NCBI GenBank assembly: GCA_017538365.1 | Contig: JAFYIZ010000032.1 | Location: 1 to 64,000, forward strand | Source of the DNA: a bacterium | GTDB lineage: Bacteria > UBP6 > UBA1177 | DNA: 64,000 nt | Reading direction: 5' to 3' | Part shown: in pieces, positions 7,040 to 34,514 of the stretch | How the letters are laid out: each line of letters opens with the position of its first letter | Position numbering within the stretch: position 1 is the stretch's first letter | Notes under the pieces: generated by a model | What the model saw: only the letters and a program-made list of their open reading frames with translations | Databases searched by the model: none | What the model was told of the DNA's origin: nothing | Translations under genes and position numbers: made by a program

Positions 7040-7938
7040 TTATCTTGCTTCGGGTAAGTCTGCGTTATTCTGTTTGGTGAATTCAGCGTCCATAGCTGAA
7101 AGAACACCGTTGCTGATGGTGACATCGAATTCCATTCCATCTGCTGAAACGTGGGCTGCGCCGTTGTCGTAATCGCCGGAAGTAACCGTGAATTCGCCTT
7201 CTGCTGTGATTTTATCCTCGGGTTCTCTGCCGTCTGCTACAGAATAAACTTTGCTGCTTGTTACTACCAGAGTGTTGTCGTCAAAGAGGAAGATAGCTTC
7301 GATCTTTATTTTGTCTGTATCTTCTTCTGTTAAGGAGTACCATGCGGCAAGAGTTTTTTCGGCGTAAGCGTTCGGAAAATATGCTGTAGCTTTCTCTGTA
7401 AATTCCGATTCGCCGCCTTCGTTTCCTTCGCCGTTTTCTGCGTTTTCTTCTGCTTCAGCGCAGTATTTTGTGTAATCCAGTACTGCCTGCGTGCACTCTT
7501 CTTCCTTGCTGGTATCTTTGCATTCAAATTTTTTGCCGTCTACTTCATACCAGTAGCTGTTATCTGTAGTGCAGGTTTTGATAGTTTTGCCGCCACAGGT
7601 ATCGGGATCTGTGGTCGTAACGCAAGTCGCACCGTCTTCTTCATCGTAATCGATGCCGGTGTCGAAGCAGTAGTTGGAAAGGTCGTAAGCCGCTTTTGTG
7701 CAGTCATCGTCTTTTCCGCATTCGAATTTTTTACCCGTTCCTTCGACTTCATACCATGATTTGTCGTCTTCCGAGCAGAGTTTGACATCGTGTCCTTTGC
7801 ACTGTTCCTCTCTCCAGAATTCTGCACAGTATTTTTTTCCGTCATAGGTAACACCGTCGCCGTAAGGTCGGCACCGCCGCATGAAACCATCATAAATGCT
7901 GCAGCAAACATAGCTGCGAAAACCAAGAATTTTTTCAT
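7040..7938 (-). pseudogene. Cys-rich lipoprotein gene with an apparent frameshift
   Basis: ATG 7938, with AAGGAGAG before it, encodes a clear lipoprotein signal (MKKFLVFAAMFAAAFMMVSC) but that frame runs into unrelated sequence. The rest of the protein is in another frame, open from about 7890 to the stop at 7040. It shows two related modules of about 45 residues, with CSEDDKSWYEVEGTGKKFEC and CTTDNSYWYEVDGKKFEC, each ending in a YC pair, then a C-terminal domain without Cys (YFPNAYAEKTLAAWYS, FLFDDNTLVVTSSKVYSV). Joining the frames needs a -1 shift. An A7 run on the coding strand at 7838-7832 forms the in-phase heptamer A AAA AAT. Assembly error, homopolymer contraction (a pseudogene or phase switch) and recoding are all possible. 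Function unknown. Confidence 0.65.
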
Positions 7939-8073
7939 TTTTCTCTCCTTAAAAAAGTTGGTAATATTCAAAACCTTAAATAAACAAAAAAACGCTGAAT
8001 TTTAGGAACTACCGTCGGAAATGCAAGAATTTTTTGCCGTCATCCTGAAATCTCGATTTTATTTTAGAAAAAC

Positions 8074-8101
8074 TTGAAAATAGTTTTAAAATTTATATAG
8101 T
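8074..8101 (+). promoter_or_regulatory. Putative promoter of the VirB5-like gene
   Basis: TTGAAA (8074-8079), 16-bp spacer, TATAGT (8096-8101), 25 nt before ATG 8127. It lies in the divergent region with the minus-strand lipoprotein. Confidence 0.55.
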
Positions 8102-8126
8102 GATTCGTTTTTTTGAGAGGTCGGTT

Positions 8127-8990
8127 ATGAAAATTGTTATTTTTATTTTGTGTTTTTCCGCGACTTTTTTTCTTTCGGCGCAGGTTGTTGTCGAAAGTCC
8201 GGAGACCGACGCGCTTCTTGCAACACAGATGATTATGATAAACGAACTTGCAATCAGCAGCCGTGCCTCTGAGACGGAGCGCTTTGTCGAATATCTGGGG
8301 CAGTTTGCAGAAATTATTTCTGAGATAAAAAAGAGGGGCGAAGAGGCTGCGAAAGTGCTGCAGATCGGGCGCGAACTTAAAAACAAAAGTGCAGGAGAGT
8401 GGCTTTCGGAAGTCGAAAAGGGACTTGAAAAAGTTTATCCCGATCTTGGAGAAGTCGCCGGATTTGTTTCGGAAGCAGGCGGAAAAGCTGCAAGTGCCGG
8501 AAAGTATGCCGGTTATGTTTCAAGCTGGAGCAGAAAACTCGGAGAATACCACGACAAGCTTTTGGAAAATTACGGAAACCACACGGTTTTTCCTGAGCTT
8601 TTTCCCGCCGCGGCAAAATCAGGCAAAGATTTTATACACGGCGAAAGTTCGCAGAAAATCGTCCACAAAGCGTGGCTGGAATCGGGAATGGAATACGAGA
8701 TGAAAAACGATGCGGTACGCGGCGAAATGTTCAGGCATTATTATGAAGAATATATGAAAAGTGCGAAAGAAAACGACAACATCGAGGCTCTGGGGCTCGC
8801 AAACCTGATGCAGAGTTCGTATATTTCAGCCGAAACGCTTGAACACATACGCAAAAACCTTGATCTGAAGGTGATGAAAGAGCAGTTCGACCGCGATTCT
8901 GCAGGATCGTATCTCCAGTTTTTGAGGGAGGAAAACAAGGAAAAAGATTCGCAGAAAAGTGAGAGGAAAAAGAGTATTTTCGGGCTTTGA
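8127..8990 (+). CDS. Exported helical protein, weak VirB5/TrbJ resemblance
   Basis: A 287-residue protein with signal peptide MKIVIFILCFSATFFLSA and a largely helical mature part. The order is a long N-terminal helix region (LLATQMIMINELAISS), a Gly/Ala-rich centre, and a C-terminal helical hairpin (NIEALGLANLMQSSYISAET). The layout and the C-terminal 'AL..AN.....' segment recall VirB5/TrbJ pilus-tip proteins of type IV secretion. Similarity is by shape only and could be wrong. ATG 8127 is chosen (GAGAGGTCGG before it). The gene after it is a lytic transglycosylase overlapping the stop, as virB1-like and virB5-like genes often cluster. No other secretion gene is present. Confidence 0.45.
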   Translation: MKIVIFILCFSATFFLSAQVVVESPETDALLATQMIMINELAISSRASETERFVEYLGQFAEIISEIKKRGEEAAKVLQIGRELKNKSAGEWLSEVEKGLEKVYPDLGEVAGFVSEAGGKAASAGKYAGYVSSWSRKLGEYHDKLLENYGNHTVFPELFPAAAKSGKDFIHGESSQKIVHKAWLESGMEYEMKNDAVRGEMFRHYYEEYMKSAKENDNIEALGLANLMQSSYISAETLEHIRKNLDLKVMKEQFDRDSAGSYLQFLREENKEKDSQKSERKKSIFGL

Positions 8991-20964: not shown

Positions 20965-21204
20965 TTAGAAGAAGGTGCTAGTCAAGAAAAAGTGGACACG
21001 AAAAATTCTGCTGTGTTCACGATCGATCATGGAACGCTTGTAATCTAATCCCATTTTATCCCAAGTTGCTTGCACTTTTTTTAGCCATTCATCTTCAACA
21101 CTGAGCTGACCAATCTGCTTCAAGTATCTTTCTTCTTTGATTTCATTGGCCTTTTTCTCTTTGAAACTCGTGTCGTTGAATATCTCCGGAAGATGCTCCA
21201 GTAA
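20965..21204 (-). pseudogene. IS3-family transposase remnant
   Basis: An open frame of 80 codons without a start. It reads EHLPEIFNDTSFKEKK, then RYLKQIGQLSVEDEWLKKVQ, then GLDYKRSMIDREHS. The pattern 'Y.QIGQL.VE..WLKK' is the C-terminal leucine-zipper end of IS3-group OrfA, and 'R..MID.EH' resembles the start of OrfB, here in one frame. Both ends of the element and the DDE catalytic part are missing. It fills most of the gap of about 325 bp upstream of murG and abuts a copy of the TGACAC operator block at 21202. The family call is by recalled motif. Confidence 0.6.
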
Positions 21205-21218
21205 GATGGTTTGAAAAC

Positions 21219-21231
21219 TGACACGGTGTCA
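21219..21231. promoter_or_regulatory. TGACACGGTGTCA palindrome (orphan copy)
   Basis: A perfect TGACAC-G-GTGTCA palindrome within a stretch (21202-21235) that matches the right half of the operator blocks at 22055-22088 and 25043-25076. Its last three bases are the stop codon of the minus-strand AlkD-like gene. No plus-strand gene follows, so it looks like a displaced or broken copy of the block. Confidence 0.65.
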
Positions 21232-21906
21232 GGATAACTTCAGACCCTTCAAGTAGATTTTCTGCTCAGCAGTGATTCTGAAACTTTCAATAGCCTTTTG
21301 AATAGTTTTGTTGTGTACCCACGGCGAAAGCCTTTTGTTTTCGAGATATTTGACTGTCGGATCCCACTGCTTGGCAAGAGCCGTCGCAAAAAACCACGCG
21401 ATCATCATGTTGATGTAGTATTCATCGCTTTTTACTGCTGCGGGAATTTGAAGGAACTCTTCGCGGAAATCCCCGTCAAGAAAATGGCTCATCAGCATTT
21501 TTATGCCGAAGCGGCAGGTGTAAACATCTCTGCTTTTTGCCCAACTCTTTATTTTTACAAGCAGTTTTTCTCTGTTTTTCTTGAATGATTTCGGAGACAT
21601 CGTATCGCAGACAGCCCAATTGTTGACAAAAGGCAGAAAGCGTTCGGTCTCAGCCAGACATTCATCGAGATCCTTCATTTCAGAGATAAAGATCCCGTGA
21701 AGAAGGTTTTCCTCTAAGAACCTGTGCGGCAGAGTTTTCATCAAATCAGCCGCCTCACCGTTCATGAGAAGCTCTTTGGCGATGTCTCTGAGTATCGGGA
21801 TGCGGACTCCGATAATTGAACTGCGATCTATTGTCGGCAGAAGTTTTGCCTGAAAATCGGCAAAAGATCTGTCCTGTAATTTCATCAACTTAGCAACTAT
21901 ATCCAT
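21229..21906 (-). CDS. AlkD-like DNA alkylation repair HEAT protein
   Basis: A 225-residue all-helical protein of the DNA alkylation repair (AlkD) family, which removes N3/N7-alkylpurines from DNA. Motifs: LMKLQDRSFADFQAKLLPTI, IIGVRIPILRDIAKELL, FLPFVNNWAVCDTMSPKSF, RFGIKMLMSHFL and MMIAWFFATALAKQW. ATG 21906 is the natural family start; TTG 21918 follows GGAGG closely and adds four residues. It stands alone between an IS remnant and the redox operon, facing the other way, and its stop codon lies in a copy of the operon's operator. That suggests a replacement or insertion at the island edge. Confidence 0.85.
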   Translation of the reverse strand: MDIVAKLMKLQDRSFADFQAKLLPTIDRSSIIGVRIPILRDIAKELLMNGEAADLMKTLPHRFLEENLLHGIFISEMKDLDECLAETERFLPFVNNWAVCDTMSPKSFKKNREKLLVKIKSWAKSRDVYTCRFGIKMLMSHFLDGDFREEFLQIPAAVKSDEYYINMMIAWFFATALAKQWDPTVKYLENKRLSPWVHNKTIQKAIESFRITAEQKIYLKGLKLS

Positions 21907-22010: not shown

Positions 22011-22084
22011 TGACACACTGTCAAAATAAAACTTGACACGGTGTCAACTTTGTTTAAGATGGCTCGAAACCTGACACGGTGTCA
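22011..22084 (+). promoter_or_regulatory. Promoter with three TGACAC-type operators, copy A
   Basis: Three 13-bp palindromes: TGACACACTGTCA (22011-22023), TGACACGGTGTCA (22034-22046) and TGACACGGTGTCA (22072-22084). A promoter TTGACA (22033-22038), 16 bp, TAAGAT (22055-22060) has its -35 box inside the second palindrome, and the third lies just after the -10. Binding there should block transcription of the flavodoxin-led operon. A TetR-family regulator at the operon end (33891) is the likely binder. Confidence 0.75.
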
Positions 22085-22122
22085 GGATAGTTCTGGTTTT
22101 TTGGAATTTGATCGGAGGAATC

Positions 22123-22770
22123 ATGAAATTAAGAAAATCATTTGTTTTTACAGCATTTTTGGCACTTGTTTTGTGCGGCATCTGCATGACTTTATCGGCT
22201 AAAAACACAAATACGGAGAAAAAGACAATGGAAAACACCAACAAAAACCGCAAAGTCCTCGTCGCTTACTTTTCGAGGACAGGCGAGCAGTATTCAGTCG
22301 GCAACATCAGTGAGGGAAACACAGCAATAATCGCAAAAATGATAGCTGCAAAAACGGGCGGCGACCTTTTTGAGATCAAGGTGGCGAAAGACAACTACCC
22401 GAAAGGTTACACCGCGCTCACCGAGTATGCGAAAGAGGAAAAACAGAAGAAGGCGAGACCTGAGATCGTCGGAAAAGTCGCGAAATTCGCAGACTACGAC
22501 ACCGTTTTCATCGGTTATCCGAACTGGTGGAGCGATATGCCGATGCCGGTATATACGTTTCTTGAAAGCTATGATTTTACTAACAAAAACGTCGTTCCTT
22601 TCTGCACCCACGAGGGCAGTGGGATCGGCGGCACCGAAAACAACGTCAAAAACGCGGCGAAAGGTTCCAAACCCCTGAAAGGTTTCGCGATTTACGGTCA
22701 CACCGCGCAGAACGAAAGGGCAGAAGCCGAGAAAAAAGTTTCGCAGTGGCTGAAAGAGATAGGGTTTTAA
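22123..22770 (+). CDS. Flavodoxin-like protein with N-terminal signal peptide
   Basis: FMN-binding one-electron carrier or quinone/nitro reductase of the Flavodoxin_4 type. The enzyme part starts at Met36: VLVAYFSRTGEQYSVGN (phosphate loop), GGDLFEIKV, DYDTVFIGYPNWWSDMPMPV and PFCTHEGSGIGGTENNV. Before it lies a Sec signal (SFVFTAFLALVLCGICMTLSA) and a short polar linker ending NTEKKTM. ATG 22123 follows GGAGG; a second SD (GGAG) and ATG at 22228 could give a cytoplasmic form. The leader is repeated in the CMD-cupin gene. First gene of the redox operon. Confidence 0.85.
   Translation: MKLRKSFVFTAFLALVLCGICMTLSAKNTNTEKKTMENTNKNRKVLVAYFSRTGEQYSVGNISEGNTAIIAKMIAAKTGGDLFEIKVAKDNYPKGYTALTEYAKEEKQKKARPEIVGKVAKFADYDTVFIGYPNWWSDMPMPVYTFLESYDFTNKNVVPFCTHEGSGIGGTENNVKNAAKGSKPLKGFAIYGHTAQNERAEAEKKVSQWLKEIGF
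22215..22230 (+). promoter_or_regulatory. Internal SD and ATG at leader/flavodoxin junction
   Basis: GGAG at 22215-22218 is 9 nt before ATG 22228, in frame, exactly where the flavodoxin domain begins (MENTNKNRKVLVAYFS). It would produce a leaderless protein from the same mRNA. Confidence 0.5.
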
Positions 22771-22811
22771 ACTGACACGGTTCGGGAAAACAACTATTTA
22801 AGGAGGATTTC

Positions 22812-23858
22812 ATGCAATACACGGAATTGGGCAGCACGGGGATCAAGGTGTCGCGTATCTGCGTCGGCGGAATGAGTTTCGGAGAGGCGTCGGAGAGATT
22901 TCACCAATGGACTCTGAATCAGGCTGACACACAGAAAATGATCGAACACGCCTATAGTTTAGGAGTGAATTTCATTGATACAGCAAACTGCTACAGCTTT
23001 GGCACAAGCGAAGAATACATCGGAAAGTCGCTCAAAAATCTCGGGATCGGACGCGATAAGATAGTGCTTGCGTCAAAAGTCTACTTTAATGAGGGCAAGC
23101 TCTCAAAAGCAGCGATTCTGCGCGAAATTGACGGAACGCTCTCACGGCTCGGTATGGACTATCTCGATCTCTATCAGATCCACCGTTTCGATTATTCAAC
23201 TCCGGTCGAAGAGACTATGGAGACGCTTGACAGTCTCGTCAAAGCAGGGAAGGTCAGGGCTATCGGTGCGAGTGCCATGTACGGCTATCAGTTCCACAAT
23301 ATGCAGATCGCGGCAGAGAAAAACGGTTGGACTAAATTCTCAACTATGCAGAATCATTATAATCTTCTTTACCGCGAGGATGAGCGCGAACTTATTCCGG
23401 TATGCAGACAGTACGGAGTTTCGCTTATTCCTTACAGCCCGCTTGCCGGCGGTCATCTTGCGCATAAAGGCTGGGAATCGGGAAGCAGACGTTCTCAAAC
23501 AGATAAAGTTATCCGCGACAAATACGATTCCGAAATGGAAAACAACCTCGAAATCATCGCAAAAGTGGCTGAACTGGCTGAAAAATACAGTGTTACGATG
23601 ACTGAGATCGCACTCGCATGGCATTTCAAAAAAGGAGTGGCTTCTCCGATCGTCGGTGCAACAAGCATGGCGCATTTCGATGATGCAGTCAGAGCAGTCG
23701 ATCTGAAACTGTCTGAAGATGATGCAAAAACACTCGAAAGTGTCTACAAGCCGCACAAAATAACGGGTGCTCTCAGCGAAGAAAGCGGCGATAAGAATTT
23801 CGACAGGATAACAGCAAAAAATAATAAAAAACCTGACACGGTGTCAACTTTTGTGTAG
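22812..23858 (+). CDS. Aldo/keto reductase
   Basis: NAD(P)H-dependent carbonyl reductase with a TIM barrel, 348 residues, cytoplasmic. The catalytic tetrad is visible: Asp and Tyr in NFIDTANCYSFGTSEEYIGK, Lys in VLASKVYF, His in YQIHRFD. Further motifs: GYQFHNMQIAA, MQNHYNLLYREDERELIPVC, ASPIVGATSMAHFDDAV. Closest in style to YajO/YghZ-like members. SD AAGGAGG before ATG. The last codons (PDTVSTFV) are encoded by a TGACACGGTGTCA palindrome, so the operator has become part of the reading frame. A half-site TGACACGG lies upstream at 22773. Confidence 0.92.
   Translation: MQYTELGSTGIKVSRICVGGMSFGEASERFHQWTLNQADTQKMIEHAYSLGVNFIDTANCYSFGTSEEYIGKSLKNLGIGRDKIVLASKVYFNEGKLSKAAILREIDGTLSRLGMDYLDLYQIHRFDYSTPVEETMETLDSLVKAGKVRAIGASAMYGYQFHNMQIAAEKNGWTKFSTMQNHYNLLYREDERELIPVCRQYGVSLIPYSPLAGGHLAHKGWESGSRRSQTDKVIRDKYDSEMENNLEIIAKVAELAEKYSVTMTEIALAWHFKKGVASPIVGATSMAHFDDAVRAVDLKLSEDDAKTLESVYKPHKITGALSEESGDKNFDRITAKNNKKPDTVSTFV
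23834..23846. promoter_or_regulatory. TGACACGGTGTCA palindrome in AKR 3' end
   Basis: A perfect copy of the operator, 43 nt before the first possible start of the metallo-beta-lactamase-fold gene and inside the aldo/keto reductase reading frame. CTGACA overlapping it could serve as a -35 for an internal promoter; the -10 is unclear. Confidence 0.6.
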
Positions 23859-23888
23859 TTTCGTTTCTGCTGCAGTGTTATTTTTTAT

Positions 23889-24995
23889 ATGTGGGTGAAA
23901 GTTTTAACAATGATATTTAAGAAGAAAAAACGAATGATTATTATTTCGATTCTCTTTTTAGTTCTGCTTGTTTTAGGGCTGACAAGTGTGTTGTTTCTGA
24001 ATCAGGCGAGTTTCGGGCGGATCCCGCATGGAAAGCGGCTTGAGCGCATCAAACACTCTCCCAATTACGACGGCAGCGGTTTCGTAAACGAGGAAAAAAC
24101 GGTCACAATGACGGGAGACCGCAGTTTTTTGGAGGTCTGGAACGATTTCTTCTTCGGCGACAAGTCGAAAACTGTGCCAACTGAACCGATGAATGTCATC
24201 AAAACGGATCTGAAATCGCTTCCCGGTGAGCGCGACTGGATCGTCTGGTTCGGCCATTCCTCGTATCTGATGAACCTTTCCGGCAAAAAAGTGCTCGTCG
24301 ATCCGATATTTTATAAGGCATCACCTGTGAGTTTCGTGAACAAAATGTTCGACGGGACTGATGTCTACAAGCCTGACGACATGCCTGACATCGATTTTTT
24401 GGTGATAACGCACGACCACTGGGATCATCTTGACTATCAGGCGGTTAGTGAGCTTGAGCCGCGTGTGAAAAAAGTCGTGACCGCTCTCGGTGTCGGCGAA
24501 CACCTTGAATACTGGGGATATCCTGCGGAAAAACTCACTGAACTCGACTGGCGGGAGTCTGCCGATTTTGGAGAGGGATTCAGTGTTACCGCGACTCCGG
24601 CACGCCATTTTTCGGGGCGGGATCTGCACCTCAACAAGACTTTGTGGGCATCATTCGTCATTGTTTCACCGAAGCGGACAGTCTGGATCGACGGCGATTC
24701 AGGCTACGGCAGGCACTTTGCCGAAATAGGCGGAAAATTCAAAAATATCGACCTCGCCATCCTCGAAAACGGCCAGTACAATAAGGATTGGTCGCAGATC
24801 CACACTATGCCTGAAGAATTGGGCAGAATAATGAAGGATCTTAACGCCAGACGCTACATGACAGTGCACCATTCACGCTTCTGCCTGAGCGACCATCCGT
24901 ATTGGGAACCGCTTGAAAACGCTAAACGCGCTGCCGCAGAATCAGGCAAACCTGTTCTGATGCCGCAGATGGGCGAAGTCGTTTATTTGGAATAA
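23889..24995 (+). CDS. Membrane-anchored metallo-beta-lactamase-fold hydrolase (NAPE-PLD/UlaG-like)
   Basis: A 368-residue protein with an N-terminal transmembrane anchor (MIIISILFLVLLVLGLTSVL) and a metallo-beta-lactamase fold facing the periplasm. Metal motifs: WFGHSSYLMN, VLVDPIF, LVITHDHWDHLDYQAV (HxHxDH), TPARHFSGRD, IDGDSGYG, VHHSRFCL. The WFGHSS/ATPARHFSGR pattern is that of the NAPE-phospholipase D/UlaG group, which hydrolyse phosphodiesters or lactones; the substrate is unknown. There are several possible starts (ATG 23889, 23910, 23934), none with a strong SD. Lies 30 nt after the aldo/keto reductase, downstream of an operator palindrome. Confidence 0.85.
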   Translation: MWVKVLTMIFKKKKRMIIISILFLVLLVLGLTSVLFLNQASFGRIPHGKRLERIKHSPNYDGSGFVNEEKTVTMTGDRSFLEVWNDFFFGDKSKTVPTEPMNVIKTDLKSLPGERDWIVWFGHSSYLMNLSGKKVLVDPIFYKASPVSFVNKMFDGTDVYKPDDMPDIDFLVITHDHWDHLDYQAVSELEPRVKKVVTALGVGEHLEYWGYPAEKLTELDWRESADFGEGFSVTATPARHFSGRDLHLNKTLWASFVIVSPKRTVWIDGDSGYGRHFAEIGGKFKNIDLAILENGQYNKDWSQIHTMPEELGRIMKDLNARRYMTVHHSRFCLSDHPYWEPLENAKRAAAESGKPVLMPQMGEVVYLE

Positions 24996-24998
24996 ACC

Positions 24999-25072
24999 TG
25001 ACATGATGTCAAAATAGAACTTGACGCGGTGTCAATTTTGTTTAAGATGGCTTGAAACCCGACACGGTGTCA
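24999..25072 (+). promoter_or_regulatory. Promoter with three TGACAC-type operators, copy B
   Basis: Palindromes TGACATGATGTCA (24999-25011), TGACGCGGTGTCA (25022-25034) and CGACACGGTGTCA (25060-25072) surround TTGACG (25021-25026), 16 bp, TAAGAT (25043-25048). The geometry is the same as in copy A; the palindromes have drifted slightly, so regulator affinity may differ. It sits inside the gene series and gives the CMD-cupin gene and those after it their own regulated start. Confidence 0.72.
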
Positions 25073-25110
25073 GGATAATCGGTTCTTTTTTAATTTGATC
25101 GGAGGCAACT

Positions 25111-25959
25111 ATGAAAAAGATTTTCATTGCATTTTTGGCACTTGTTTTTTGCAGCATTTGCCTTGATTTATCGGCTAAACCTTCAAATACGGAGAAAAAG
25201 ACAATGACAAAAGTAGTTCAGACTGCGGGGCGGGACAACCTCGGCTCTTTCGCGCCGGAATTCGCCCATTTCAACGACGATGTCCTTTTCGGCGAGAACT
25301 GGAATAATGCTGACATTTCACTTAAAACGAGGAGCATCATCACGGTCGTAGCCCTGATGTCGCAGGGGATAACCGATTCTTCGATGAAACACCACCTTCA
25401 GAACGCTAAAAACAACGGCGTTACAAAGGAAGAGATCGCCGCTGTTATAACCCACACCGCGTTTTATGCAGGCTGGCCCAAGGCGTGGGCAACATTCAAT
25501 CTCGCAAAAGAGATCTGGAACGAAAAAGCTCCCGCAATGAGCGAAAAGGATAAGTACGCGCAGACAATAATGTTCCCGATAGGCGTTCCGAACACAGCTT
25601 ATGCGAAGTATTTCATCGGGCAGAGCTATCTTTCTCCGGTTTCTACCAGCCAGGTGAAGATTTTCAACGTCACTTTCGAGCCGAAATGCCGCAACAACTG
25701 GCACATCCACCACGCGAAAACGGGCGGCGGACAGATGCTTATCGCAGTCGGCGGCAGAGGATTTTATCAGGAATGGGGCAAAAAACCGATAGAGATGAAG
25801 CCAGGAGATGTCATCAATATTCCGGCAAACGTCAAACACTGGCACGGCGCGGCTCCCGACAGCTGGTTTTCGCATCTCGCAATCGAGATCGACGGCACCG
25901 AAACTTCGAACGAATGGCTCGAACCGGTGAATGATGCGGAATACGGGAAACTGAAATAA
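25111..25959 (+). CDS. Exported carboxymuconolactone decarboxylase-like/cupin fusion
   Basis: A 282-residue two-domain protein. A signal peptide (KIFIAFLALVFCSICLDLSA) and linker NTEKKTM are followed by a CMD domain (residues 40-150: DISLKTRSIITVVALMSQGI, HLQNAKNNGVTKEEIAAVIT, FYAGWPKAWATF). A cupin follows (about 185-270: CRNNWHIHHAKTGGGQMLIA, MKPGDVINIPANVKHWHGAA) with His metal ligands. The CMD part lacks the AhpD CxxC pair, so peroxidase chemistry is unlikely. Such CMD-cupin fusions are common in gut anaerobes and their substrate is unknown. GGAGG precedes the ATG; an internal GGAG-ATG at 25204 marks the domain start. Confidence 0.85.
   Translation: MKKIFIAFLALVFCSICLDLSAKPSNTEKKTMTKVVQTAGRDNLGSFAPEFAHFNDDVLFGENWNNADISLKTRSIITVVALMSQGITDSSMKHHLQNAKNNGVTKEEIAAVITHTAFYAGWPKAWATFNLAKEIWNEKAPAMSEKDKYAQTIMFPIGVPNTAYAKYFIGQSYLSPVSTSQVKIFNVTFEPKCRNNWHIHHAKTGGGQMLIAVGGRGFYQEWGKKPIEMKPGDVINIPANVKHWHGAAPDSWFSHLAIEIDGTETSNEWLEPVNDAEYGKLK
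25191..25206 (+). promoter_or_regulatory. Internal SD and ATG at leader/CMD junction
   Basis: GGAG at 25191-25194, 9 nt before in-frame ATG 25204 (MTKVVQTAGRDNLGSF), the position where homologous leaderless CMD-cupin proteins would begin. Confidence 0.5.
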
Positions 25960-25968
25960 GGAGGAAAA

Positions 25969-26574
25969 ATGAAAAAATTTTTTATTATTTTTGCGGTTTT
26001 AGTATTCTCGCTCGTCTCATGCGGCGAAAAGGAGGAAACTATGAAAAAGGAGGAAGTTATGTCGTTTGCTGAATTGGCTCAAAAAAGGTATTCCGTCAGA
26101 AGTTATGCCCCGAAACCTGTTGAACAGGATAAGATAGAGGCGATATTGGAGGCTGGGAATATGGCTCCGACAGCCAAAAATCTTCAGCCGCAGAGGATCT
26201 ATGTGCTGAAAAGCAAAGAATCGCTTGAAAAGTTGTCTGCACTCACCCCGATGGGATTCAATGCGCCGGTCGTGCTGATGATCGCATACAATGAGGATGA
26301 AGAGTGGAAAAACCCGCTGCAGGAGGGGATCCATTCCGGGATCGAGGATGCAAGCATCGTTGCAAGCCATATTATGTTCAGAGCGACCGAACTCGGGCTT
26401 GGAAGCTGCTGGGTCAACTACTTCGCAAACGATGAACTGAAAAAAGCGTTCGCCCTTCCCGAGAATGAAAAGATCGTGCTGCTGATGCCGATAGGGTATC
26501 CGGCTGAAAACTCGGAACCTTCGTCGAGGCACTCAGAGAAAAAGCCGTTAAGTGAAACAGTGAAGTATTTATAG
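25969..26574 (+). CDS. Nitroreductase-family lipoprotein
   Basis: FMN-dependent nitroreductase fold, 201 residues. The enzyme part begins at Met31: MSFAELAQKRYSVRSYAPKP, AILEAGNMAPTAKNLQPQRI, DASIVASHIMFRATELGLGS and VLLMPIGYPAENSEPSSRHS. In front is a lipoprotein signal (MKKFFIIFAVLVFSLVSC) with lipobox LVSC, then GEKEETMKKEEV. Lipidated nitroreductases are unusual. Two internal SD-ATG pairs (26031-26043 and 26049-26061) precede the enzyme start. AAGGAGGA precedes ATG 25969. The electron donor could be the operon's flavodoxin or flavin reductase (inference). Confidence 0.85.
   Translation: MKKFFIIFAVLVFSLVSCGEKEETMKKEEVMSFAELAQKRYSVRSYAPKPVEQDKIEAILEAGNMAPTAKNLQPQRIYVLKSKESLEKLSALTPMGFNAPVVLMIAYNEDEEWKNPLQEGIHSGIEDASIVASHIMFRATELGLGSCWVNYFANDELKKAFALPENEKIVLLMPIGYPAENSEPSSRHSEKKPLSETVKYL
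26031..26061 (+). promoter_or_regulatory. Two internal SD-ATG pairs before the nitroreductase domain
   Basis: GGAGG (26031-26035) then ATG 26041, and AGGAGG just before ATG 26059, both in frame. ATG 26059 opens MSFAELAQKRYSVRSY, the normal nitroreductase N-terminus. The lysine/glutamate codons of the linker naturally make SD-like sequence, so the signal may be partly coincidental. Confidence 0.5.
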
Positions 26575-27692: not shown

Positions 27693-28781
27693 ATGAAAAA
27701 AATTCTCATTATTTTTGCAGCATTGATTTTTGCTGTCATTTCCTGCGGCGACAAGCAGGAATCAAAAACAAATGAAAAGGGAGGAGAAGGCATGGATGCG
27801 GTCAAAAAGTCTGTTGAACCGGAAAAGAGAGAGGAACACTACACTTTTGAGCTTGCGGAAGGAGTGATCCGCACGAAAGTCCGCTTCAAAAACCACTTCG
27901 GGATAGAACTTGCCGGTGATCTCTACACTCCGGCTGATGCTGCGGCTAATGGTAATGCGGCAATCGCGGTGAGCGGCCCTTTCGGAGCTGTCAAGGAACA
28001 GTCGAGCGGTCTTTATGCCAACGAAATGGCAAAGAGAGGCTTCATCGCGCTTGCTTTTGACCCTTCGTTTACAGGCGAAAGTGCGGGAGAGCCCCGTTAT
28101 ATGAACAGTCCCGACATCAATACAGAAGATTTCATGGCGGCAGTCGATTTTCTTTCAACACGTGACAACATCGATCCTAAAAAAATAGGCATCATCGGCA
28201 TCTGCGGCTGGGGCGGAATGGCTCTCAATACGGCTGCGATCGATACGAGGATTAAGGCGACGGTCGCAAGCACGATGTATGATATGAGTCGCGTCACTGC
28301 AAACGGCTACAATGACAGCGCGGATTCAGCCGATGCAAGGAACGAAGCACGCAAAGCCATGATGGCGCAGAGGATCGAAGACTTCAAAAAAGGAAGCTAC
28401 AAACTTGCAGGCGGTGTCATTGATCCGCTTCCCGAGGATGCTCCGCAGTTCGTGAAGGATTACTACGCATACTACAAAACTCCGCGCGGCTACCACGAAC
28501 GCTCGCTCAATTCAAACGGCGGATGGAACGTCACGGCTGCGACGTCGCTTCTCAACACGAAACTTTTGTCTTATGCCGATGAGATCAGGAGTTCCGTCCT
28601 CATCATCCACGGCGAAAATGCTCACAGCAGATACTTCAGCGAGACGGCGTTCAAAAAACTCGAAGGCGACAACAAGGAACTGATGATAATTCCCGGCGCG
28701 AACCATGTTGATCTTTACGACAACCTTGAAAAGATCCCGTTCGGAAAATTGGACGAGTTTTTCAGGAAGAATCTGAAGTAG
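27693..28781 (+). CDS. Alpha/beta hydrolase lipoprotein (DLH-like)
   Basis: A 362-residue protein. Lipoprotein signal MKKILIIFAALIFAVISC (lipobox VISC), linker GDKQESKTNEKGGEG, then an alpha/beta hydrolase: KNHFGIELAGDLYTPADAAA, GLYANEMAKRGFIALAFDPS, DPKKIGIIGICGWGGMAL, IRSSVLIIHGENAHSRYFSE, GANHVDLYDNLEKIPF (His). The nucleophile elbow reads GICGWGG with Cys rather than GxSxG, as in dienelactone-hydrolase relatives. Substrate unknown. The leader closely resembles that of the nitroreductase. An internal GGAGGAGAAGGC-ATG at 27792 marks the domain start. Confidence 0.83.
   Translation: MKKILIIFAALIFAVISCGDKQESKTNEKGGEGMDAVKKSVEPEKREEHYTFELAEGVIRTKVRFKNHFGIELAGDLYTPADAAANGNAAIAVSGPFGAVKEQSSGLYANEMAKRGFIALAFDPSFTGESAGEPRYMNSPDINTEDFMAAVDFLSTRDNIDPKKIGIIGICGWGGMALNTAAIDTRIKATVASTMYDMSRVTANGYNDSADSADARNEARKAMMAQRIEDFKKGSYKLAGGVIDPLPEDAPQFVKDYYAYYKTPRGYHERSLNSNGGWNVTAATSLLNTKLLSYADEIRSSVLIIHGENAHSRYFSETAFKKLEGDNKELMIIPGANHVDLYDNLEKIPFGKLDEFFRKNLK
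27780..27794 (+). promoter_or_regulatory. Internal SD and ATG at leader/hydrolase junction
   Basis: GGGAGGAG (27780-27786) followed by in-frame ATG 27792 (MDAVKKSVEPEKREE), just ahead of the folded hydrolase domain. Confidence 0.5.
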
Positions 28782-28798: not shown

Positions 28799-29335
28799 AT
28801 GAAAAAAGTATTGATTTTATCAGGCAGTCCGCGAAAAGGCGGCAACTCGGATACTCTCTGCGATGAATTCATGCGCGGGGCAATCGAGGCTGGCAACGAA
28901 GTTGAGAAGATACGCGTCAGCGAGAAAAAGATCGGCTACTGCACAGGCTGCTACTACTGCCAGAAATCGGGCGGCGTGTGCGCCATCAAAGACGACATGA
29001 ACGAACTCCTGCAGAAAATGATAGACGCTGATGTCATCGTGCTTGCAAGTCCGGTCTATTTCTATTCGATCGACGCACAGCTCAAGACCGTGATCGACAG
29101 GACTGTGGCACGCTGGCTTGAAGTCAAAAACAAGGAATTTTATTACATCGCGACAAGCGCCGATAAGGATCCGAAGTCGCAGGAGCGCACGATCGAGTGT
29201 TTCCGCGGATATGCAGACTGTGTCGAAGGCGCTGTCGAAAAAGGTGTGATATATGCGACCGGTGTTTACCAGAAAGGCGAGATCCAGAACAGCCCCGCTT
29301 TGAAAGAAGCTTATGAGATGGGAAGAAAAGTGTAA
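28799..29335 (+). CDS. NADPH-dependent FMN reductase-like iron-sulfur flavoprotein
   Basis: A 178-residue flavodoxin-fold protein: MKKVLILSGSPRKGGNSDTL (FMN phosphate loop), GYCTGCYYCQKSGGVCAIKD (CxxCxxCx5C, possible Fe-S site), DVIVLASPVYFYSIDAQLKT. The pattern matches the archaeal-type ISF / NADPH-dependent FMN reductase family, which passes electrons between ferredoxin and FMN. No leader sequence. AGGAGGA before ATG. Followed 4 nt later by larE. Confidence 0.87.
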   Translation: MKKVLILSGSPRKGGNSDTLCDEFMRGAIEAGNEVEKIRVSEKKIGYCTGCYYCQKSGGVCAIKDDMNELLQKMIDADVIVLASPVYFYSIDAQLKTVIDRTVARWLEVKNKEFYYIATSADKDPKSQERTIECFRGYADCVEGAVEKGVIYATGVYQKGEIQNSPALKEAYEMGRKV

Positions 29336-29339
29336 GTGC

Positions 29340-30164
29340 ATGCGTGATCCTGCTCTTGAAAATAAACTTTCGGCTTTGCGTAAGTTCTTCCGCTTGTACG
29401 GAAATGCCGCGATAGCCTTTTCCGGCGGGGTCGATTCGACTTTTCTGCTTAAAGTTGCGCATGACGAACTCGGTGAAAAAGTGCTGGCTGTAAGTGCTGT
29501 ATCCGTACTTTCCCCGAAGCATGAAACTGAGGCGGCTGCGGCATTCTGCAAGAAAGAGGGGATAAGGCTCGTCACTATTCAGATCGATCCGCTGAAAATC
29601 CACGGATTTAAAAACAATCCAGAAAACCGCTGCTACATCTGCAAAAAAGAAATATTCAGTAAAATCAGAAGTTTGGCTTTGGAAAACGGAATTTACACGG
29701 TCTGCGACGGAAGCAACGCCGACGACACTGGCGACTACCGCCCCGGAATGCAGGCTTTAGCTGAGCTCGGTATCAAAAGTCCGCTTCTGGAGTGTGGATT
29801 TACGAAAAGCGAGATCCGTGAACTTTCAAAAGAGATCGGTCTTCCGAGCTGGAACAAACCGAGCGCGGCCTGCCTTGCGTCACGATTCGTCTACGGAGAG
29901 GAAATAACCGCTGAAAAACTGCAAATGGTCGAAAATGCGGAAGATTTTCTGCAAGAACTTGGCTTTAGACAAAAGCGTGTCAGGATCCACGGCGATAATC
30001 TGGCACGTATTGAGGTCATGCCGGAAGATTTTGAGAAAATTCTAAACGCAAAAGAAAAAATCAATAATTATTTTAGAAGTTTAGGCTTTAAATACGTGAC
30101 GCTTGACATTCAGGGTTTCAGAAGCGGAAGTATGAACGAGGTGATTAAAAATGAGCGGAATTGA
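29340..30164 (+). CDS. larE: LarE, sulfur transferase of nickel-pincer cofactor synthesis
   Basis: Adenylates and thiolates the pyridinium dicarboxylate carboxylates, giving up its own cysteine sulfur in the studied LarE. PP-loop ATPase motif AIAFSGGVDSTFLLKVAHDE; ICKKEIFSKI; CDGSNADDTGDYRPGMQALA; conserved sulfur Cys in PSAACLASRF. Length 274 residues, normal. The frame is open further upstream, but ATG 29340 lies just after the preceding stop; the SD is modest (GGGAAGAAAAG). It overlaps larB by 14 nt. Confidence 0.93.
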   Translation: MRDPALENKLSALRKFFRLYGNAAIAFSGGVDSTFLLKVAHDELGEKVLAVSAVSVLSPKHETEAAAAFCKKEGIRLVTIQIDPLKIHGFKNNPENRCYICKKEIFSKIRSLALENGIYTVCDGSNADDTGDYRPGMQALAELGIKSPLLECGFTKSEIRELSKEIGLPSWNKPSAACLASRFVYGEEITAEKLQMVENAEDFLQELGFRQKRVRIHGDNLARIEVMPEDFEKILNAKEKINNYFRSLGFKYVTLDIQGFRSGSMNEVIKNERN

Positions 30165-30831
30165 TGCATTGAAATTCGCGGAACTCGATACTGAGCGCAA
30201 AAAGCGGACGGGATTTCCCGAAGTCGTTTTCTGTCAGGGGAAAAAGGACGATTTTCTGAAAGATATTTTCGCAAAACTATATGCCGCAAACGGCGAAGTT
30301 CTGGGAACACGGGCGACTGCAGAGCAGTTCGAGATCGTGAAAAGCGTCATAGCAAATGCTGAATACGACGAGGTCTCGCGTATTATCACGGCAAGAGAAA
30401 ACGAGAAAAAACTTGTAGGTAATATCGCGGTATGTACTGCGGGAACGGCTGATATTCCGGTGGCGGAAGAGGCTGCAAGGACGGCTGAATTTTTTGGCAG
30501 TTTTGTTAGTAGAATCTACGATGTCGGCGTGAGCGGGATCCACAGACTTCTTTCAAAAACCGAGATTTTAAACAAGGCTAACTGCATCATCGCGATAGCC
30601 GGAATGGAAGGAGCTTTGGCGAGCGTCATCGGCGGACTTGTTTCGGTTCCCGTGATAGCAGTCCCGACTTCGGTGGGCTACGGAGCAAGCTTTGAAGGGC
30701 TTTCGGCACTGCTCACAATGATAAATTCATGCGCGAACGGCATTTCGGTAGTCAACATCGATAACGGCTTCGGCGCAGGATATGTCGCGACTCAGATAAA
30801 CTTTTTGGCAGAGAGGGGAAAGACAAAATGA
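30151..30831 (+). CDS. larB: LarB, NaAD carboxylase/hydrolase of nickel-pincer cofactor synthesis
   Basis: Carboxylates nicotinic acid adenine dinucleotide and hydrolyses it to pyridinium-3,5-dicarboxylate mononucleotide. PurE-like fold: DTERKKRTGFPEVVFCQGKK, NIAVCTAGTADIPVAEEA, YDVGVSGIHRLL, IIAIAGMEGALASVIGGLVS, PTSVGYGASFEGLSALLTMI. Full length at 226 residues. ATGA overlap with larC. Confidence 0.94.
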   Translation: MSGIDALKFAELDTERKKRTGFPEVVFCQGKKDDFLKDIFAKLYAANGEVLGTRATAEQFEIVKSVIANAEYDEVSRIITARENEKKLVGNIAVCTAGTADIPVAEEAARTAEFFGSFVSRIYDVGVSGIHRLLSKTEILNKANCIIAIAGMEGALASVIGGLVSVPVIAVPTSVGYGASFEGLSALLTMINSCANGISVVNIDNGFGAGYVATQINFLAERGKTK

Positions 30832-32093
30832 AGGGAAAAAACTTATATTTCGAGTGCACTTCGGGAATAAGCGGAGACATGGCGGTTGCCGCACTTCTTG
30901 ATCTTGGTGCGGATAGAGAAAAACTTCTCAAAGTGCTTGGATCTATTCCCGCAGACGGATTCAAAGTTGAGATCTCGGATGTTGTGAAAAATGGTGTAAA
31001 GTGCTGTGATTTCAATGTTATCCTTGATGAAAAGCACGAAAATCACGACCACGATACCGATTATCTTTTCGGGCACAAGCACCAGCACGTGCATCATCAC
31101 CACGAACACAGGAATTTAGGCGACATCCTGCATATAATCGAACACACAGAACTGAATGAAAACGCTAAAAATTTAGCCGGAAAAATTTTCAGAATAGTCG
31201 CAGTTGCCGAATCCAAAGCGCACGGTGTCGCGCTTGAAGAAGTCCACTTCCACGAAGTCGGCGCGATAGATTCGATAGTCGATATCGTCGCGTTTGCTTT
31301 CTGCTTCGATGATCTGGGCATTGAGCGCGTTTTCATTCCGGTACTCACTGAAGGAATGGGCGAGATCCGCTGCCAGCACGGGATTTTGCCGATACCTGTC
31401 CCCGCAGTCGTGAACATCGTGCAGGAATACGGATTTTCTTTGAAAATTACCGACACGAAAGCTGAACTCGTGACACCGACCGGTGCTGCGATAGCTGCGG
31501 CAGTCCGGACTGACGAGACACTTCCGAAAGAATTCAAAATAACGAAAATAGGGCTCGGCGCAGGAAAAAGAAACTACGAAAAACCGAGTATTCTCAGAGC
31601 TTTTCTGATCGAAGTTTCTGAAGAAACGACTGCCGCCGAAAAAAATAAAGAACCCGCAAATGAAGTGATGAAACTGGAAGCCAATATCGACGATTCGACA
31701 GGCGAAGAGCTCGGTTTCGCTATGGAGCAGCTTTTTGAAGCGGGAGCACTCGATGTTTTCTACACACCCTGCTTCATGAAGAAAAACCGCCCGGCATACA
31801 TGCTGACAGTCCTCTGCAAAAACGAGGATCGTGAAAAAATGGAAGAGATAATTTTCAATCAGACAACGACCATCGGGATCCGCCGCACCAAAACCGAAAG
31901 AAGCGTCCTCGAGCGCGAGACACTTCTCATCGATACACCCTATGGAGAAGTGAGGATCAAACTTGTGAACCACAACAACCGGAAACGTTTTGCCCCAGAA
32001 TACGAAGATGTCGCCGTAATAAGCAGGCGTACAGGCATCTCTTTCGGCAAAATATACAATGAACTTGTGGCTTTCTGCAGATCGCAGTTTTAA
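30828..32093 (+). CDS. larC: LarC, nickel insertase of nickel-pincer cofactor synthesis
   Basis: CTP-dependent insertion of nickel into the pincer nucleotide. The 421-residue protein is a single uninterrupted frame; in Lactobacillus plantarum larC1/larC2 are joined by frameshifting. Motifs: YFECTSGISGDMAVAALLDL, a His-rich metal-binding loop (HKHQHVHHHHEHR), VHFHEVGAIDSIVDIV, ELVTPTGAAIAAAV, LEANIDDSTGEELGFAMEQL. No LarA-type enzyme is present in the window, so the cofactor's user is not identified here. Confidence 0.95.
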   Translation: MKGKNLYFECTSGISGDMAVAALLDLGADREKLLKVLGSIPADGFKVEISDVVKNGVKCCDFNVILDEKHENHDHDTDYLFGHKHQHVHHHHEHRNLGDILHIIEHTELNENAKNLAGKIFRIVAVAESKAHGVALEEVHFHEVGAIDSIVDIVAFAFCFDDLGIERVFIPVLTEGMGEIRCQHGILPIPVPAVVNIVQEYGFSLKITDTKAELVTPTGAAIAAAVRTDETLPKEFKITKIGLGAGKRNYEKPSILRAFLIEVSEETTAAEKNKEPANEVMKLEANIDDSTGEELGFAMEQLFEAGALDVFYTPCFMKKNRPAYMLTVLCKNEDREKMEEIIFNQTTTIGIRRTKTERSVLERETLLIDTPYGEVRIKLVNHNNRKRFAPEYEDVAVISRRTGISFGKIYNELVAFCRSQF

Positions 32094-33890: not shown

Positions 33891-34514
33891 ATGCCCAAAT
33901 TTTCGCAGGAAATCATGAATTCACGCAAGGAAGAGCTCGTTGATGCGTGCGAAAAGCTCTATCAGACAAAGACTTTCAACGAGATAACTTTGAAGGAGAT
34001 AGGGGATACGGCGGAGTTTACGCGCACTGCGATATACAGCTATTTTCAGACAAAAGAGGAGATTTTTTTAGCTCTCTTGCAGCGTGAATACGGAAAGTGG
34101 ATAAAAGAACTTGAAGATATCGAAGCGACGAAGGTGAAACTCACGGCTTCCAAACTTGCAAGAAGGTTCGCCCTTTCGCTTCAGAACAGGGTGCAGCTTT
34201 TGAAACTTCTCAGCATGAACCTCTATGCAATCGAGGAATTGAGCCGCGATGAAAATCTGCTGGAGTTCAAAAAGGTCTACAAAGCCGCTATCGATGCGGT
34301 CGACAGGTGTTTTAAAATGTTCAAGCCGAAAGCGACACAGACCGAAAGTTATGCCTTCAGCTATCAGTTTTTTCCATTCATGTACGGCGTTTATCCTTAT
34401 GTTTTCCCTTCCGAAAAGCAGGCCCGTGCGATGAAAACTGCCGGAATGAAGCTCAAAAAGAGAACAGTCTACCAGCTCGCATATCCGGCGATTCTCAAAA
34501 TGCTCGGGAAATAA
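33891..34514 (+). CDS. TetR/AcrR-family regulator
   Basis: A 207-residue one-component regulator. N-terminal HTH: RKEELVDACEKLYQTKTFNE, ITLKEIGDTAEFTRTAIYSY, FQTKEEIFLALLQREYGKW. The C-terminal helical ligand domain contains FALSLQNRVQLLKLLSMNLY. TAGGAG before ATG. Last gene of the redox series, 9 nt after the DUF362 gene. The 13-bp TGACACGGTGTCA palindromes upstream are of the size and symmetry TetR dimers use, so local autoregulation is likely (inference). Ligand unknown; possibly a quinone, nitroaromatic or aldehyde. Confidence 0.92.
   Translation: MPKFSQEIMNSRKEELVDACEKLYQTKTFNEITLKEIGDTAEFTRTAIYSYFQTKEEIFLALLQREYGKWIKELEDIEATKVKLTASKLARRFALSLQNRVQLLKLLSMNLYAIEELSRDENLLEFKKVYKAAIDAVDRCFKMFKPKATQTESYAFSYQFFPFMYGVYPYVFPSEKQARAMKTAGMKLKKRTVYQLAYPAILKMLGK

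Follow-up and report, generated by a model that had tools for sequence, protein, structure and literature searches.

How did two enzymes of unrelated fold come to stand behind nearly the same stretch of regulatory and export DNA? The question is raised by 64,000 nucleotides of a bacterial genome (NCBI GenBank assembly GCA_017538365.1, contig JAFYIZ010000032.1, positions 1 to 64,000 of the forward strand; hereafter, the window), in which a flavodoxin gene and a CMD-cupin gene each follow a block of about 210 bp (block A, 22011-22230; block B, 24999-25206). The window represents contig C32 of genome G000 (2.32 Mb, 97.6% complete), and G-numbers below denote genomes of its genus (UBA1177-like, candidate phylum UBP6). 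The UBP6 genomes of one ruminant study were all assigned to the genus UBA1177 (PMC7820578), and the near relatives bearing the flavodoxin are rumen metagenome-assembled genomes, including UBP6_UBA1177. We favor reassortment of 5′ cassettes by recombination within a genus-specific regulon, to which we assign a probability of roughly three in four.

Alignment of the two blocks yielded 80% identity over ~210 bp (196 bits, E ~1e-52). When the window was shuffled 20 times with its dinucleotide content approximately kept, block A reached at most 31.9 bits. Both contain three palindromic operators at equal spacings (23 bp and 38 bp), a TTGACR-16-TAAGAT promoter, a Shine-Dalgarno (SD) sequence, signal-peptide codons and the tail ACGGAGAAAAAGACAATG; their longest exact run is a 23-nt tail, CAAATACGGAGAAAAAGACAATG. 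Similarity is lost at the ATG opening each enzyme (22228 and 25204, respectively). An ungapped comparison of the 60 nt that follow gave 23% identity, and the mature enzyme parts show 46% DNA identity, which equals background. The enzymes themselves, Flavodoxin_4 behind block A and CMD plus Cupin_2 behind block B, have unrelated folds (Pfam). A preliminary description of this DNA had reported both the paired blocks and the end of their similarity at the enzyme domains, and both statements hold; simple gene duplication and chance convergence, the alternatives it named, do not explain the blocks.

Relatives hold more copies with other enzymes behind them, in agreement with the earlier proposal of a cassette that brings a regulator site and an export signal to different enzymes. 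The exact operator TGACACNGTGTCA occurred in 13 of 15 genus genomes, at 1-26 copies each, and in none of four genomes from other genera of the family; its reversed-pattern control had zero matches in the 15 genus and four other-genus genomes. The two genus genomes lacking an operator match (G005, G010) are 72-77% complete. Almost all operators in the fetched loci (155 of 158) were non-coding, though 77% of the sequence is coding. Seventy-three near-identical modules stand before genes of 21 families and cluster in an island of redox and stress enzymes whose gene order is shuffled. From the module consensus, taken by eye (CCTGACACGRTGTCAAAATAAAAAWTTGACACGGTGTCATTTTTRTTTATYCTGACACGGTGTCRGGATAAGTTCGTTTTT), op2 lies over the -35 element and op3 adjoins the -10 element, and the leader DNA is held in common as well. 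A 91% copy of the operator-promoter part precedes a Cyclophil_like2 lipoprotein gene in G009. A literature search on the operator sequence found no paper.

The sharing of front ends was then quantified by comparing 290-bp start regions of non-homologous genes only, where a match had to span the start codon at a threshold of 60 bits. The island set (522 genes, 208 families) was compared to a control set (310 genes, 237 families) from 400 kb, that is twenty 20-kb stretches elsewhere in three of these genomes. Five family pairs in the island reached at least 60 bits (maximum 255 bits), while no start-spanning control pair did (maximum 48 bits), so that the island scores lie far outside the control range despite the larger number of gene pairs. 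The first pair is formed by the flavodoxin and CMD-cupin genes of blocks A and B. The second joins the nitroreductase at 25969 to a hydrolase of G008 (L069:2244), with a signal peptide in common and a start-spanning score of 255 bits, part of which stems from the orthologous CMD-cupin tail upstream; the nitroreductase occupies the exact place of the hydrolase gene in G008, and its 5′ part is homologous to that gene’s signal peptide. The G008 hydrolase, in turn, has 59 identical nucleotides of signal-peptide DNA in common with a Cyclophil_like2 gene of G013. The remaining pairs are nitroreductase with Cyclophil_like2, and hydrolase with a membrane flavodoxin, the latter matching mostly in the operator region. 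In addition, a type-2 flavodoxin and the G014 hydrolase have 84 bp in common, ending ten codons into the signal peptide.

Complementarily, orthologous enzymes were found to differ in their front ends. Nine genomes have flavodoxin bodies that match one another at 89-98% identity. Five of these (G000, G007, G008, G012, G017) carry a type-1 signal peptide (...LSAKNTNTEKKTM), and the DNA encoding it in the window (22123..22230) is in common with the CMD-cupin gene and with the orthologues in the other four; an operator directly upstream of the gene was found in none of those four. The flavodoxin of G009, G011, G013 and G015 bears an unrelated signal peptide and has no Met at the enzyme start. Within G000, the 5′ half of the flavodoxin signal peptide is 75% identical to CMD-cupin versus 60% to other flavodoxins, and the 3′ half is 97-100% identical to flavodoxins versus 90% to the G000 CMD gene. 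This signal peptide thus looks like a hybrid. The simplest reading of the alignments is that the G000 flavodoxin gained its operator, its promoter and the 5′ half of its signal peptide from a CMD-type front end through recombination in an older common tail; transfer in the reverse direction is possible. These front-end differences rest on inspected alignments, and ortholog-swap statistics were set aside (loose threshold, mixed flavodoxin subfamilies).

The joint between signal peptide and enzyme has a structure of its own. The tail ACGGAGAAAAAGACAATG common to both blocks is an SD sequence plus start codon, and further joints read AAAGGAGGAAACTATG, GAAGGAGGAAAGAAGATG and CTAAGGAGGAAACAATG. The family median of the SD score at the linker ATG was at least 5 in 9 of 25 island families versus 1 of 36 control families of signal-peptide proteins; the flavodoxin/CMD joint scores 4, below this cut-off. 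For ten linkers, the summed SD score was 56, compared to a mean of 35 in synonymous shuffles, with 0 of 4000 shuffles reaching 56. This P value is optimistic because the ten linkers were picked from the joint list, and the unselected family count is the safer measure. Cytosolic relatives in other bacteria (L142, L143) begin close to the joint position. Together, the SD sequences at the joints and the starts of the cytosolic relatives suggest that the enzymes most likely gained their export signals by fusion in front of start sites already present. Outside the genus, two flavodoxins of other lineages (L140, L141) have unrelated N-terminal hydrophobic segments ending in ...NNNGGEIM and ...NNGGKTM, which suggests a like joint with a translated ribosome-binding site.

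If the SD sequence and ATG at the joint were also used, each mRNA would give rise to an exported and a cytosolic enzyme. This addition to cassette reassortment fits the excess of high-scoring island families, the scores above shuffles encoding the same residues and the position of the joint ATG at or near the enzyme start. Against it, the shuffled linkers were a selected set, the joint could be a relic of fusion, and the type-2 flavodoxin has no ATG at the enzyme start, so that a second form would not be essential there. We therefore hold it as a tentative proposal, with the odds leaning against it. Rather improbable in its entirety is the wider scheme of a regulon built by swapping operator-promoter-signal-peptide cassettes before intact starts, in which every stress-induced mRNA would supply both an exported and a cytosolic enzyme and each swap would retune induction and location together. 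In the collection of papers searched, dual localization via internal initiation had no direct precedent, and neither had exported flavodoxins or nitroreductases; one relevant paper deals with the periplasmic supply of flavin mononucleotide (PMC4767422).

From the copies, sharing patterns and joints described above, we infer the following recombination route, order of events, regulation and export. Blocks A and B would be two copies of a 5′ cassette consisting of operators, promoter, leader, ribosome-binding site and signal peptide. The 5′ end of one island gene would be traded for that of another via recombination in regulatory DNA or in signal-peptide DNA that was already common, and such exchange would leave non-homologous enzymes with a common front end and orthologous enzymes with differing ones. 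In the case of the G000 flavodoxin, a CMD-cupin-like cassette reaching to mid signal peptide would have been placed before the signal-peptide tail that the flavodoxin already had. In several cases the signal peptide would have been fused upstream of the enzyme’s old ribosome-binding site and ATG, which would make the linker a translated ribosome-binding site. The TetR-type protein TetR1 would repress the promoter from op2 and op3 until released by an inducer, and the enzymes would reach the periplasm or, as lipoproteins, a membrane.

TetR1 as the regulator of the operator is a candidate at about even odds, judged by its co-occurrence with the operator and by operators upstream of its gene. Orthologues are present in 13 of 15 genus genomes, and an operator lies directly upstream of the TetR1 gene in G008 (three copies), G016 and G006, an autoregulation-type arrangement. 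A second protein, TetR2, has close matches in G008, G012 and G017 only, and in the first two its gene is preceded by operators; both TetR2 and an Rrf2-type protein were rejected as general regulators, since each is present in only some operator-bearing genomes. The HcpR site is TTGAC-N4-GTCAA, and an HcpR/CRP-type site was rejected, by reasoning only, as the palindrome found here is odd-centered with a 5-nt gap between TTGAC and GTCAA.

Several points weigh against cassette reassortment under TetR1 as set out here. All genomes are metagenome-assembled, and G013 has 6% contamination. The island set is larger than the control set in genes, gene pairs and genomes. The N-termini resemble Sec or lipoprotein signals as judged by eye and hydropathy. 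Some genes have operators but no signal peptide, and the type-1 flavodoxin of most relatives has the signal-peptide tail without an operator; thus, the two cassette parts do not always travel together. The copies as such are observed, and the direction and mechanism of exchange can be read in several ways. As to the regulator, TetR1 was not found in G017, an operator-bearing genome, it is present in G005 and G010 (the less complete genomes in which no operator was found), and TetR2 and a further TetR adjoin operators, too.

Among the other explanations, the strongest is that a whole gene was duplicated in tandem and its enzyme part then replaced, or that genes were inserted inside a signal-peptide region, in place of 5′-cassette transfer. 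The nitroreductase that stands right behind CMD-cupin in the place of the G008 hydrolase speaks for it, as homology there begins in the CMD tail and continues as far as the signal peptide. On its own, however, it leaves unexplained both the orthologous flavodoxins with two unrelated signal peptides and the operator-promoter modules with different ends. We judge it less likely than not; it leads to an equal product and may be one of the routes. Simple tandem gene duplication was rejected because the similarity between blocks A and B stops before the enzyme bodies.

Insertion before genes by a genuine mobile element, whether transposable or site-specific, would account for the many near-identical module copies within one genus, the overlap of some modules with 3′ ends of upstream genes and the shuffled gene order of the island. 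The cassette is confined to one genus, however; it was not found in known plasmids, phages or viral contigs, nor outside the genus in a search of 28 phylum genomes. No phage-type integrase (PF00589) was present in the island, a result that includes no systematic search for serine recombinases or transposases, and the only two PF00589 tyrosine recombinases in G000 are on contigs C17 and C36. Synteny breakpoints lay within 60 nt of an operator in 24% of cases; the corresponding figures were 6% for random positions and 30% when the random positions were intergenic. On these figures a role of operators as recombination hot spots was rejected, the enrichment being lost once the comparison is limited to intergenic DNA. 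Moreover, copies end variously, at the signal-peptide n-region, the lipobox or the enzyme ATG. A mobile element is hence quite improbable, and of the mobile expression-and-export cartridge suggested in the preliminary description, the cassette is supported and the mobility is not. Least probable is convergence, in which common regulator sites and signal-peptide constraints make unrelated genes alike: operators are under common selection, signal peptides are alike at the protein level and control genes reach 48 bits, but synonymous positions, leader and linker match too, the exact runs are long (59 nt between hydrolase and cyclophilin-like gene, 23 nt in the A/B tail), blocks A and B align at 196 bits and the five main pairs score far above control signal-peptide genes.

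The earlier remark that no described system of this kind was known does not hold, as two come close: terminal reassortment and mycoplasma vsa switching. The former, which concerns secreted effectors, was reportedly introduced by Stavrinides et al. in 2006. According to two later papers, it fuses a signal-bearing terminus for secretion to functional sequences that are otherwise unrelated, and the resulting chimeras are alike only in that terminus (PMC5675462, PMC6460904). The same pattern, non-homologous proteins with a homologous signal-bearing terminus, is seen here in five family pairs. Terminal reassortment was originally described for substrates of type III or type IV secretion systems. 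The present case differs in that the signals look Sec or lipoprotein type, the cargo consists of enzymes of metabolism or stress from a rumen bacterium not yet cultured, the signal is accompanied by a TetR-type operator-promoter and old start sites persist at the joints. The case works like terminal reassortment with another kind of signal and cargo.

Phase-variable lipoprotein genes of mycoplasmas (vsa, vpma, vsp) have a conserved 5′ untranslated region and signal-peptide DNA; in vsa and vpma, promoter and signal-peptide DNA are placed or shared within related surface-lipoprotein families by site-specific inversion, which is performed by the Xer1 recombinase in M. agalactiae (PMC2268961). Conservation of signal-peptide and upstream DNA between genes is common to both systems, but the locus studied here fails the defining features of vsa switching: there is no PF00589 integrase in the island (serine recombinases were not searched), many modules have promoters of their own, the cargo is non-homologous and no silent copies were seen. 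Finally, an ordinary TetR-family regulon would likewise place a palindromic operator over the -35 and next to the -10 element before many stress genes, and the candidate regulator gene has its own operator in three genomes; here, leader and signal-peptide DNA are copied as well, beyond the needs of common regulation.

To our knowledge, bacterial cytosolic enzymes have rarely been caught in the act of gaining export signals. This one genus displays several pairs of unrelated enzymes behind a common front end, orthologous enzymes whose signal peptides differ, and joints with an apparent old ribosome-binding site. A concrete route to export is suggested, since fusion upstream of the old start could keep an enzyme makeable in both places, and it would tie regulation to location, with a single step changing both the timing of an enzyme’s production and its destination. 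The SD sequence and ATG at the end of the signal-peptide linker are a testable signature that is searchable across bacteria.

Table 1. Coordinates of cassette parts and associated features in the window.
Feature	Position	Strand	Basis or remark
Block A operators, form TGACACNGTGTCA	op1 22011-22023 (variant); op2 22034-22046; op3 22072-22084	+	Sequence pattern
Block A promoter	-35 TTGACA 22033-22038, overlapping op2; 16-nt spacer; -10 TAAGAT 22055-22060	+	Sequence; layout equals module consensus
Block A SD sequence GGAGG	22114..22118	+	Sequence
Flavodoxin signal peptide and linker MKLRKSFVFTAFLALVLCGICMTLSAKNTNTEKKTM	22123..22230	+	Predicted by eye and hydropathy only
Block A joint: internal SD GGAG 22215-22218, ATG 22228-22230	22215..22230	+	Signal peptide/enzyme junction
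Flavodoxin_4 enzyme body	22228..22770	+	Pfam PF12682, E 5e-26
Block B operators	24999-25011; 25022-25034; 25060-25072 (variants)	+	Sequence pattern
Block B promoter	-35 TTGACG 25021-25026; 16-nt spacer; -10 TAAGAT 25043-25048	+	Sequence
CMD-cupin signal peptide and linker MKKIFIAFLALVFCSICLDLSAKPSNTEKKTM	25111..25206; internal GGAG 25191-25194, ATG 25204-25206	+	Sequence comparison
CMD + Cupin_2 enzyme body	25204..25959	+	Pfam PF02627, PF07883
Third module copy, truncated (-10 region and op3)	21202..21236	+	91% to block A positions 45-79
Single exact operator	23834..23846	+	Overlaps 3′ end of aldo/keto reductase gene, upstream of MBL-fold gene
Nitroreductase lipoprotein signal peptide and linker (MKKFFIIFAVLVFSLVSCGEKEETMKKEEVM)	25969..26061	+	Two SD-ATG joints, ATG 26041 and 26059
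DLH-type hydrolase lipoprotein signal peptide and linker	27693..27794	+	Signal-peptide family as in nitroreductase and Cyclophil_like2
TetR1 (TetR_N + TetR_C_34), candidate operator regulator	33891..34514	+	Pfam

Features beyond the preliminary description are the truncated copy at 21202-21236, the operators at 21219 and 23834, the signal-peptide sharing at 25969 and 27693 and the SD sequence within the tail (Table 1). The truncated copy has no signal peptide behind it and overlaps the 3′ end of a DNA-alkylation-repair gene; the operator at 21219 is a single one. At 23834-23858, and in relatives at L027:5614 and L025:13366 and 14901, the operator reaches into the 3′ end of the gene before it and extends the protein C-terminus (for example, DTVSK, DTVSTFV), as if modules had been pasted over these gene ends.

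The island and its adjoining genes encode flavodoxins, CMD proteins, MBL-fold proteins, a DLH-type hydrolase, Cyclophil_like2, nitroreductase, iron-type alcohol dehydrogenase, hydroxylamine reductase, DinB, a methylated-DNA methyltransferase and the nickel-pincer proteins of larE, larB and larC, a content that would suit a defense against DNA alkylation and against electrophiles, nitro compounds or quinones. The larE-larB-larC genes (nickel-pincer cofactor synthesis; NCBIfam) stand at the end of the enzyme island (29313-32093 in the window), and in relatives the operator module can precede each of the three. Within the island at L065:10582-13057, the hydroxylamine reductase (hybrid cluster protein) gene adjoins that of a CRP-family regulator. 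An exported ABM-domain protein of G014 (L074:5518-5970) has a counterpart in G008 (L083:5755-7149) with an amidohydrolase domain between signal peptide and ABM. Also in G014, two larger proteins (L073:5932-7356 and 7376-8806) carry a flavodoxin part toward the C-terminus, which in one of them is preceded by a DUF4405 domain (Pfam).

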